A stretch of DNA of 64,000 bases from NCBI RefSeq assembly GCF_902506265.1, contig NZ_LR733556.1, forward strand, positions 983,106-1,047,105, given 5' to 3'. The stretch's first letter is position 1; every line of letters starts with the position of its first letter. The stretch is from Flavobacterium sp. 9AF. Lineage in GTDB: Bacteria; Bacteroidota; Bacteroidia; Flavobacteriales; Flavobacteriaceae. Positions 48,213 through 51,756 of the stretch are shown one piece after another. The notes under the pieces were generated by a model. It saw only the letters and a list, made by a program, of their open reading frames with translations, was not told the DNA's origin and did not search any database. Both the position numbers and the translations under genes were made by a program.

Positions 48213-49460
48213 ATGATAAAGAAGGCATTTTTAAAATATATCGAAAACTTTAAAGGTTTCTCTAGAGAAATTTGGATTCTAACTCTTATTACTTTTATTA
48301 ATAGAGCAGGAACTATGGTACTCCCCTTCTTATCAAAATATTTAAATGAAGATTTAGGTTTTTCATTAGATAAAGTGGGTTGGATAATGGTTAGTTTTGG
48401 TTGCGGTTCCATGTTAGGCTCTTGGTTAGGAGGAAAATTAGCTGACAAAATCGGATTTTACAAAGTCATGATTTTTAGCTTATTAACCAGCGGTTTTATG
48501 TTCTTTGGTTTACAACATATTACGTCATACGAAGGATTGTTAATAGCCATTTTTTTAATTATGACCATAGCCGATATGTTTCGTCCAGCCATGTTTGTGT
48601 CATTAGGTGCCTATGCTAAACCAGAGAATAGAACACGAGCATTAACTTTAGTGCGATTAGCTGTTAATTTAGGTTTTGCAGCAGGACCTGCTTTAGGAGG
48701 ACTTATTATAATGAATATTGGCTATAAAGGATTGTTTTGGGTAGATGGAATAACTTGTATTATTGCTATTCTTATATTTTGGATAAAAGTAAAAGAAAAA
48801 GAGCACTCTCCTTATTTAGATAAAAAAAATCCAGGAGAGATTTTAACAACTTCAGTCTTTCGCGATACTACTTTTTGGACTTTTTTACTTATGTGTTTAA
48901 TTAATGGTATTATCTTTTTTCAATTATTTACTACTTTACCTATTTATCATAAAAAGCAATTTAATTTAACAGAATTTCAAACAGGCTTATTATTAGCATT
49001 TAATGGCATTCTAATATTTTTCATGGAAATGCCTTTAGTAAGCTATATAGAAAACAGAAAGATGAACAAAGCAAAAGTGGTTACTATTGGAACCTTTATA
49101 ATGGCTTTATGTATGTATTTACTTCTTTTAAAACAATGGGTATTTGTTTTATGGATTATGATGTTTTGTATGACCTTTGGAGAAATGCTTGCTTTTCCGT
49201 TTTCTAATTCCTTCGCAATGAGTCGTGCACCTAAAGGACATGAAGGAAGATATATGGCTATATTTACTATGAGTTATAGCTTAGCACATATTCTCTCTTC
49301 TAAAACAGGTTTTTTTATTATTGAAAAATATGATAGTTTTCAACGGAATTGGTTCTTTATGGGTAGTATAGGTCTATTTGGTACTTTTCTTGGGGGATTG
49401 ACTTTATATTTTCTTAAAAAAGAAAAAGAAAAAAATAAAACTAAAAAAATAGTTAAATAA
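48213..49460 (+). CDS. MFS transporter
   Basis: A 415-residue membrane transporter with 12 predicted helices. Motif A between helices 2 and 3 reads GGKLADKIGFYKV, and its echo in the second half is VSYIENRKMNKAKVVT. The loop between helices 4 and 5 (LGAYAKPENRTRALTLVRLA) contains conserved Arg residues typical of drug or metabolite efflux MFS members of the YxlH/EmrD-like groups. The substrate is unknown. The last codons overlap the first of three palindromic operator-like sites that precede the BlaI gene. Confidence 0.9.
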   Translation: MIKKAFLKYIENFKGFSREIWILTLITFINRAGTMVLPFLSKYLNEDLGFSLDKVGWIMVSFGCGSMLGSWLGGKLADKIGFYKVMIFSLLTSGFMFFGLQHITSYEGLLIAIFLIMTIADMFRPAMFVSLGAYAKPENRTRALTLVRLAVNLGFAAGPALGGLIIMNIGYKGLFWVDGITCIIAILIFWIKVKEKEHSPYLDKKNPGEILTTSVFRDTTFWTFLLMCLINGIIFFQLFTTLPIYHKKQFNLTEFQTGLLLAFNGILIFFMEMPLVSYIENRKMNKAKVVTIGTFIMALCMYLLLLKQWVFVLWIMMFCMTFGEMLAFPFSNSFAMSRAPKGHEGRYMAIFTMSYSLAHILSSKTGFFIIEKYDSFQRNWFFMGSIGLFGTFLGGLTLYFLKKEKEKNKTKKIVK

Positions 49461-49494
49461 CTATAAAAATAGTTGTAAAACTAAAAATATAGTT
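49439..49494 (+). promoter_or_regulatory. Three 16-bp palindromic operator-like sites, evenly spaced
   Basis: AACTAAAAAAATAGTT (49439-49454), AACTATAAAAATAGTT (49459-49474) and AACTAAAAATATAGTT (49479-49494) share the form AACTA-N6-TAGTT and lie exactly 20 bases apart, two helical turns. The first overlaps the end of the MFS gene, and the second overlaps the -33 TTG of the following promoter. Inference: binding sites for the BlaI-type repressor encoded directly downstream. Confidence 0.8.
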
Positions 49495-49503
49495 ATATGT
49501 TTG
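49473..49503 (+). promoter_or_regulatory. Promoter of the blaI-M56 pair (TTG-N20-TATGTTTG)
   Basis: TTG (49473-49475), a 20-base spacer and TATGTTTG (49496-49503), 17 bases before the start at 49521. It is interleaved with the operator-like palindromes. Confidence 0.7.
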
Positions 49504-49881: not shown

Positions 49882-51756
49882 ATGGAAAACTTGATGTTAT
49901 ATATTCTTAAAGTAAATGGATTATTAGTTGTTTTCTATTTAATTTATCATTTTCAATTAAAAAAGGAAACTTTTTTTCAAATTAACCGCAGTTTTTTGCT
50001 TTTAGGTATAATAACTTCATTCGTTTTACCACTCATTTCATTTACTACTATTATTTGGAAAGATCCAGAACCACTTACATCTGGTTATGCTTATCAAACC
50101 CTACCATTAAATTCATTCGAAAATAAAGTAGAAGTAGCACCATTTAATTGGAATCTGTTATTTTTTCTCTGTTATTTTTTAGTTTCTTTTTTCTTTTTGA
50201 GCAAACTATTGATAGAGTTTATTTCTTTCTTCAGAATCATCAAAAAAGGAAATAAAAGTAAGTCAGAAAAAATTATTTTGGTTGAAACCAATGAATGTCA
50301 GAATCCTTTCTCATTTTTCAACTACCTTGTCGTGAATAAAGGACATTTTACAACTGAAGAATTAGAATTAATATTAATTCATGAAAAGATTCACATAGAA
50401 CAAAAACATTCCATTGATGTTTTAATAAGTAAACTATTGTGTTTATTATTTTGGGCCAATCCTATAGTCTGGTTTTATAGAAAAGCTATTTTAGAAAATT
50501 TAGAATTCATTGCAGATCATCAAACTTCTGCAAGATCCAATAAAACGTATGAATACCAAAAAACTTTATTAAAAGCAGTTATTTGTGCAAATCAATTATC
50601 AATTACAAATCAATTTTATCAATCATTAATCAAAAAACGAATCGTTATGTTAAACACCAATCCTTCACACAAAAAACAACTTTGGAAATACTGTTTGGTA
50701 CTTCCTTTATTAATTGGTTTTATTTTCTTTTTCCAAATTCAAACCATTGCGCAAGTGAAAGAAAACCAAAATAATAATCAACAACAACAAGAAAGAGTTG
50801 AACTTCGCATCGATAAAAATTCGACAGATGAAGAAATTAAAAAAGAAACTAAATACCTTGAAGAAAAGTATCATTTAACGGTTAAAGTTTCAAAAATCAA
50901 AAGAAATAAAGAAGAAGAAATAGTAAGTTTAAAAATGGATTACAACGATGGTAAAGGAAATTCAGGATCAACGCAAATATCTGGAGACGAACCTATAAAA
51001 CCTTATGTTTTTTTCATAAATAATAACAATGGAAAAAGAAATATGGGCTTTACTTCCCTTTCAAATGAAAATAAAAGTAATGCAACTTACACTTATGAGA
51101 GTGAAGATAATGATGAAGAAGATGCTTTAGCTTATTCATATGATGAGGGAAACATGCCTGTACCTCCAATGCCTCCTGTACCACCATCTTCTAAAATGCT
51201 AAAATCTATGCCAAGTCCTCCTAGTCCTCCAAATTTTCCACAAGCTCCAGAAGTTCCTTCCGATTTGAGTGATAAGCAGGCAATGAAAAATTTTGAAGAA
51301 AAAATGGCTGCATTCGAAATGAACATGAAAAAAATGCAACCACAAATGGAACAATTTGAAAGAGAAATGGAAAAGTATGAAATGCAAATGGAAGATTTTG
51401 AACCCGATATGAAAGACTTTGAAAAAGAAATGGAAAAATTTGAAAAAGAAATGGAAGCCTATCAAGAAAAAATGATGAAAAAACATCAATATGCTTATGA
51501 ATATAAGGTTGAGAAAATGAATAGTCGAGATGCCTTAAATGAGGAAAACAAAATCCATCAAGAAGAAATGAAGAGAGCACATAAAGAAGCAATGGAAGCG
51601 CACAAGCTGGAAATGAAGGAAAGAAAAGAAGCGTTAAAAATGCGAATGGAAGCAGAAAAAGAAAGAATGAAAATGGAAATGGCAAGAATGAAAGCAGAAA
51701 TGGAAAGAGAAAAAGCGGAACAAAAAAGAAGAAGTGAAGCTTTAAAAAAAATATAA
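49882..51756 (+). CDS. M56 metallopeptidase, BlaR1-like sensor with Met-rich coiled-coil tail
   Basis: A 624-residue membrane protease. The first ~130 residues hold three transmembrane helices; the zinc motif is HEKIH at residues 167-171 (LILIHEKIHIEQKHS), with a third acidic ligand in NLEFIADHQ; a fourth helix follows at about 273-291 (VLPLLIGFIFFFQIQ). The rest, about 330 residues, is outside the membrane: a mixed domain, a Pro-rich stretch (PVPPMPPVPPSS), then a long coiled coil with repeated FE-x-x-M phrases (MEQFEREMEKYEMQMEDFE) exceptionally rich in Met, Glu and Lys. In BlaR1 this place is taken by a beta-lactam sensor, so the signal here is something else. The partner is the BlaI-type repressor upstream. 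Confidence 0.92.
   Translation: MENLMLYILKVNGLLVVFYLIYHFQLKKETFFQINRSFLLLGIITSFVLPLISFTTIIWKDPEPLTSGYAYQTLPLNSFENKVEVAPFNWNLLFFLCYFLVSFFFLSKLLIEFISFFRIIKKGNKSKSEKIILVETNECQNPFSFFNYLVVNKGHFTTEELELILIHEKIHIEQKHSIDVLISKLLCLLFWANPIVWFYRKAILENLEFIADHQTSARSNKTYEYQKTLLKAVICANQLSITNQFYQSLIKKRIVMLNTNPSHKKQLWKYCLVLPLLIGFIFFFQIQTIAQVKENQNNNQQQQERVELRIDKNSTDEEIKKETKYLEEKYHLTVKVSKIKRNKEEEIVSLKMDYNDGKGNSGSTQISGDEPIKPYVFFINNNNGKRNMGFTSLSNENKSNATYTYESEDNDEEDALAYSYDEGNMPVPPMPPVPPSSKMLKSMPSPPSPPNFPQAPEVPSDLSDKQAMKNFEEKMAAFEMNMKKMQPQMEQFEREMEKYEMQMEDFEPDMKDFEKEMEKFEKEMEAYQEKMMKKHQYAYEYKVEKMNSRDALNEENKIHQEEMKRAHKEAMEAHKLEMKERKEALKMRMEAEKERMKMEMARMKAEMEREKAEQKRRSEALKKI

Follow-up and report, generated by a model that had tools for sequence, protein, structure and literature searches.

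A tandem array of palindromes over the promoter of a flavobacterial blaI-M56 operon is a probable BlaI/MecI-type operator

Genes and Promoter Elements at the Locus

The window, that is, the whole 64-kb stretch of DNA analyzed (G+C content 31%), contains an MFS transporter gene followed by a gene for a blaI-type repressor and, after a gap of one base, by a gene for an M56 peptidase (Table 1). The repressor scored 109 bits against PF03965 (cut-off 22.6), and its alignment with MecI (1sd6/1okr) spans residues 4–118 of 119. On these matches it is assigned to the BlaI/MecI/CopY family (PF03965), with a full-length Penicillinase_R domain and a predicted MecI-like winged helix and dimerization domain. 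The 119-residue protein contains no cysteine and thus no CxC metal site, and the NCBIfam CopY model gave 47.7 bits, below its cut-off of 121.95.

The M56 protein scored 59.9 bits against PF05569 (cut-off 31), and its HExxH motif is HEKIH at 50380–50394. No transpeptidase-type domain that could represent a C-terminal penicillin-binding sensor was found in it by Pfam, and the match to NCBIfam blaR1_generic, confined to residues 128–306, reached 36.4 bits against a cut-off of 400. The C-terminal part (51000–51756) is long, rich in Glu, Lys, and Met, and coiled-coil-like, with no sensor domain there. In BlaI/MecI regulated proteolysis, the M56 partner cleaves the repressor at a conserved Asn-Phe site. 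At the corresponding position of the alignment the Phe is kept and the Asn position is occupied by Phe; the SFFAxEEKIS region of the repressor is nearly invariant among orthologues.

Three exact copies of AACTA-N6-TAGTT, with A/T-rich spacers between them, start at 49439, 49459, and 49479, a step of exactly 20 bases. The TTG at 49473–49475 and TATGTTTG are separated by a 20-nt spacer; the latter is read as the −7 box by the flavobacterial sigma-A consensus TAnnTTTG (PMC9723704), and the blaI-type gene begins 18 bp past it. The coordinates confirm the placement given in the earlier note, over the end of the MFS gene, the −33 TTG, and the region just before the −7 box: site 1 lies within the MFS open reading frame (ORF), and the final two bases of the MFS stop codon fall in site 2.

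Table 1. Features of the blaI-M56 locus (positions in the window; the named loci are defined in the text)
Feature	Position	Strand	Remarks
MFS transporter	48213..49460	+	Pfam; 3′ end overlaps sites 1-2; neighbor, not considered a target
Predicted operator site 1, putatively auxiliary, AACTAAAAAAATAGTT	49439..49454	+	Inside 3′ end of MFS ORF
Predicted operator site 2, AACTATAAAAATAGTT	49459..49474	+	Ends in the TT of the −33 TTG
−33 TTG, Bacteroidota sigma-A promoter	49473..49475	+	Kept in 61/77 named loci
Predicted operator site 3, AACTAAAAATATAGTT	49479..49494	+	Occupies the −33/−7 spacer
−7 box, TATGTTTG	49496..49503	+	Consensus TAnnTTTG (PMC9723704)
blaI-type repressor, 119 aa	49521..49880	+	Pfam Penicillinase_R E=2.3e-31; full-length MecI match E=3.6e-12
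M56 peptidase, BlaR1-type antirepressor without penicillin-binding domain	49882..51756	+	Pfam Peptidase_M56 E=2.9e-16

Occurrence of the Motif in the Window and the Genome

The positions and spacing described earlier for the three 16-bp palindromes proved exact, and these are the sole perfect copies in the window, where 0.28 would be expected from dinucleotide shuffles. None of 100 such shuffles of the window contained three or more exact sites, and 300 simulated sequences of 64 kb contained no pair of sites at a 20-base step. Across the genome the single motif shows no enrichment, with 13 palindromic matches versus 21 for the reversed control, and the genome search for AACTA-N6-TAGTT by which the earlier note had hoped to find a regulon therefore did not deliver one. 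Six of the 13 matches are accounted for by the promoters of two blaI-type genes (genes found at E≤1e-20). The other seven lie outside blaI promoters, most of them within ORFs (one, L005, overlaps a gene end and another, L160, lies between two gene ends), and for this reason they are not called targets. A relaxed search of the same genome for two sites at a 20-base step, with up to three mismatches, returned no further array.

Conservation of the Array among Relatives

The exact two-site 20-bp array was found in 66/101 Flavobacterium genomes and in 95/249 Flavobacteriaceae genomes, a sample composed mostly of one genome per genus. In the order sample two genomes outside the family carry it, so that it is nearly absent beyond Flavobacteriaceae. 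The reversed-pattern control gave no match in any genus, family, or order genome searched.

A protein search yielded 80 named loci from Flavobacterium, Polaribacter, Lacinutrix, Ichthyenterobacterium, and Formosa, and 77 of them, those with sufficient upstream DNA and with second copies of duplications left out, were scored. The earlier proposal would have been refuted had the array been missing from relatives that share this gene pair; it is present in 77/77. Sites 2 and 3 stand exactly 20 bp apart in every one of these loci (two mismatches allowed). Site 3 is exact in 77/77 and site 2 in 69/77. Site 1 is exact in 35/77 and has at most one mismatch in 59/77, and it is best read as an auxiliary site that decays in relatives. 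The only distances between exact sites across the named loci are 20 and 40. TAnnTTTG occurs at a fixed place downstream, no more than 14 nt from site 3, in 68/77. In both half-sites (AACTA, TAGTT) of sites 2 and 3 the column information is ∼2 bits, and it falls to 0.05–0.9 downstream of the −7 box. Site spacing and the distance from array to −7 box are constant, whereas that to the ATG takes values between 25 and 119, which indicates that the array belongs to the promoter and not to the coding sequence.

Where insertions separate promoter and ATG, array and promoter stay together, intact. A repeat-like element (GCGTTAGGG...AACGCCC) was observed between the −7 box and the blaI ATG in L017, L020, L058, L064, and L067. 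Several Flavobacterium genomes carry tandem blaI-M56 duplications (L302:2280-6658, L042, L046, L050, L051, L054-L057, L079), in which the array stands upstream of the first blaI only and the second copy has none. The apparent exception L238 is such a second copy, with the array upstream in the same locus.

A chance or low-complexity A/T repeat, or a terminator of the MFS gene, might be suspected in a window of 31% G+C with A/T-rich spacers, and one family match (L132/L164) does resemble an incidental inverted repeat. The conservation data refute this explanation, whose probability is negligible: the reversed control gave zero matches across hundreds of genomes, the G and C letters are conserved within an A/T background, and an MFS gene does not precede every array. 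An MFS homologue was found upstream in 60/80 named loci and not found there in 20/80. The overlap between MFS gene and array is not conserved, the position of the MFS stop in relatives ranging from 21 bases within the array to >1 kb ahead of it. Given this variable stop position and the 20 loci in which no MFS gene was found upstream, the suggestion that the array might also affect the 3′ end of the MFS gene is rejected as unsupported.

Genes behind the Array

All 30 arrays inspected in the genus precede blaI. Among 69 inspected in the family, 58 stand directly before blaI, 6 head an operon containing blaI, and 5 have no adjacent blaI. For one of these five, L132/L164, the match is probably no more than an incidental inverted repeat, located between unrelated genes. 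Since some arrays lack a neighboring blaI, an array by itself is no proof of autoregulation.

In G255 the first gene of the blaI-M56 operon is of the beta-lactamase family (PF00144, by Pfam), and in G108 this place is taken by a PF00144-type gene assigned by its sequence; in G300 a PF00144-type gene is found alone behind the array. The coordinates of the PF00144-type genes right behind a 20-bp array in three other genera are L293:6338-7783, L294:6932-8353, and L295:5261-6601, two of these genes being in a blaI-M56 operon. A second family, of ∼326–342 residues with an HEH(F)HQ-like motif and without a Pfam match, appears repeatedly behind the array (L300:3968-4948, L301:2932-3918, L293:5338-6366, L297:2830-3813). 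Its members head the operon in G183 and G177, form the second gene in G255, and in G190 one stands alone behind its own array. G300, G243, and G190 carry a blaI orthologue elsewhere in the genome, and the genes behind their arrays are thus candidate targets in trans.

Array conservation, its overlap with the promoter, and the presence of blaI behind most arrays together argue that this is very probably an autoregulatory tandem operator array of the BlaI/MecI type for the downstream repressor gene. The claim of the earlier note that a BlaI operator array covers the promoter is thereby supported, by the 77/77 loci, by the position of most sequence-found arrays before blaI, by the full-length MecI homology, and by the M56 partner.

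Paralogous BlaI Circuits and the Register of the Dyad

The same genome holds a second blaI (C54:1570251-1570607, minus strand; L041:2243-2608), whose partner is an M56-TonB_C protein. Its promoter has three exact copies of AACTA-N6-TAGTT at −75, −57, and −25, in steps of 18 and 32. An 18-bp-step array was found in 131/249 family genomes, and the control for this search gave no match in the same 249. At 27 of 30 inspected 18-step loci the array precedes a blaI nearer to the second paralogue (∼58%–69% identity) than to the window gene (∼45%–54%). When gaps of 0–24 were allowed, the 75 pairs listed comprised 29 with step 18, 33 with step 20, and 13 with steps of 26–33; the last, among those listed, mostly span a −7 box. 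The base following AACTA is A in 113/116 half-sites of 18-step arrays and T in 85/132 half-sites of 20-step arrays, counted among the listed pairs, which are a sample in which related genomes are not independent. These counts indicate that both the sixth base and the spacing differ between the 20-bp arrays (class I) and the 18-bp arrays (class II). In class II a third site often follows the −7 box.

The three exact copies before the second paralogue make cross-binding plausible, and it could be supposed that this paralogue, or an unrelated factor, binds the window array and controls blaI-M56. Such control by another regulator is unlikely, as the array travels with the orthologue of the window blaI, the arrays of the second paralogue have an 18-bp step and AACTAA half-sites, and the remaining paralogue groups have other motifs.

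Two further paralogue groups of the same genomes, one with TACTA-N6-TAGTA and one with CTACA-N2-TGTAG, the latter resembling BlaI/MecI/CopY operators, keep the same register, and CTA-N6-TAG is common to all groups. This shared element fixes the register of the dyad and connects the motif found here with the classical operator. With three tandem sites, the dyad could equally be drawn as TAGTT-N4-AACTA, in which case the true recognition elements would be the spacers between sites: both readings are symmetric, and perfect palindromes occur among the spacers, for example TAGTTTGCAAACTA. That register is nonetheless very improbable. Two-site arrays start with AACTA and finish with TAGTT; class II arrays include isolated complete AACTA-N6-TAGTT sites across the −7 box; the inter-site N4 becomes N2 in class II, yet N6 is kept; and the CTACA-N2-TGTAG paralogues have the CTA-N6-TAG register in common.

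By alignment with MecI, the likely start of the recognition helix is Tyr-Asn in the AACTA and TACTA groups and mostly Thr-Thr in the CTACA group, which is a correlation only. In some loci of the CTACA-N2-TGTAG group (L086-L100, upstream of blaI paralogues) the operator was seen to overlap the −7 box, where TACATTTG fits TAnnTTTG.

Tentatively, Flavobacteriaceae may harbor at least two parallel BlaI-M56 circuits that use the same half-site and rely on a spacing grammar to remain distinct (20-bp tandem with AACTAT in class I, 18-bp tandem with AACTAA in class II); the class I circuit would sense the envelope and, in some genera, control hydrolases of the beta-lactamase family. If so, specificity would come partly from dimer-dimer contacts along the DNA and not from the half-site alone.

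A Model for Autorepression

In the autoregulatory reading, each AACTA-N6-TAGTT would be occupied by a repressor dimer. At site 3 the dimer would sit between −33 and −7, that at site 2 would cover the −33 TTG, and that at site 1 would extend the filament upstream. Jointly, the bound dimers would obstruct sigma-A RNA polymerase, so that the blaI-M56 operon would be switched off. Upon an envelope signal the M56 metallopeptidase would inactivate BlaI, leading to derepression. Both the binding by the encoded repressor and the proteolytic derepression are steps that we infer. The 20-bp step corresponds to nearly two helical turns, with an offset of ∼34° per step at 10.5 bp per turn, and allows adjacent dimers to lie on about the same face. 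From this geometry dimers about two turns apart might bind cooperatively and give a steep response, a property that is not readable from sequence. For Streptococcus pneumoniae CopY, the nearest relative tested in this respect, two sites gave no clearly higher affinity than one (PMC7253601).

For a large family, the array defines a precise predicted geometry of operator and promoter, and it offers a sequence route to its regulon. The paralogous circuits amount to a natural experiment on how repressors with near-identical half-sites avoid cross-talk, and the arrays before beta-lactamase-family genes in other genera would connect the circuit, which lacks a recognizable penicillin-binding sensor, with cell-wall or beta-lactam stress.

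Comparison with Known Systems

The open-access literature searched yielded no account of operators for BlaI in Flavobacteriia, those of BlaI-M56 pairs included, and BlaI is absent from the main text of a Flavobacterium psychrophilum transcriptome paper. Among the closest known relatives are the BlaI/MecI systems of Staphylococcus aureus and Bacillus licheniformis (OP1-OP3), which share with the present locus the winged-helix repressor family (full-length match), an operon with an M56 partner that is autoregulated (here by prediction), and several dyad operators per promoter region; B. licheniformis has three (PMC3305447). The bla/mec operator core is TACA-N2-TGTA, whereas AACTA-N6-TAGTT lacks this classical core and has only CTA-N6-TAG in common with the CTACA-N2-TGTAG paralogues. 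Unlike in bla/mec, the three sites form a strict 20-bp tandem over a single promoter, the M56 partner has no recognizable penicillin-binding sensor, and there is no divergent beta-lactamase gene at this locus.

CopY/CopR repressors belong to the same family and act at tandem operators upstream of an operon, as is predicted here: the two cop boxes precede an autoregulated operon and have been proposed to cover the −35 element and the polymerase (PMC7253601). Cop operators are mostly 24–39 bases apart (mode 26) with the core KACANNYGTA, in contrast to the 20-bp step and AACTA-N6-TAGTT found here, and CopY/CopR carry C-terminal CxC metal-binding motifs, whereas the present repressor is free of cysteine. 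A further close relative is the class II BlaI of Flavobacteriaceae, which has the AACTA/TAGTT half-site and an array over a blaI-M56 promoter but differs in its 18-bp step, its AACTAA half-site, and its frequent third site past the −7 box. The array represents a variant of the known BlaI/MecI/CopY kind of operator, and its unexpected part is the difference in spacing between paralogous circuits.
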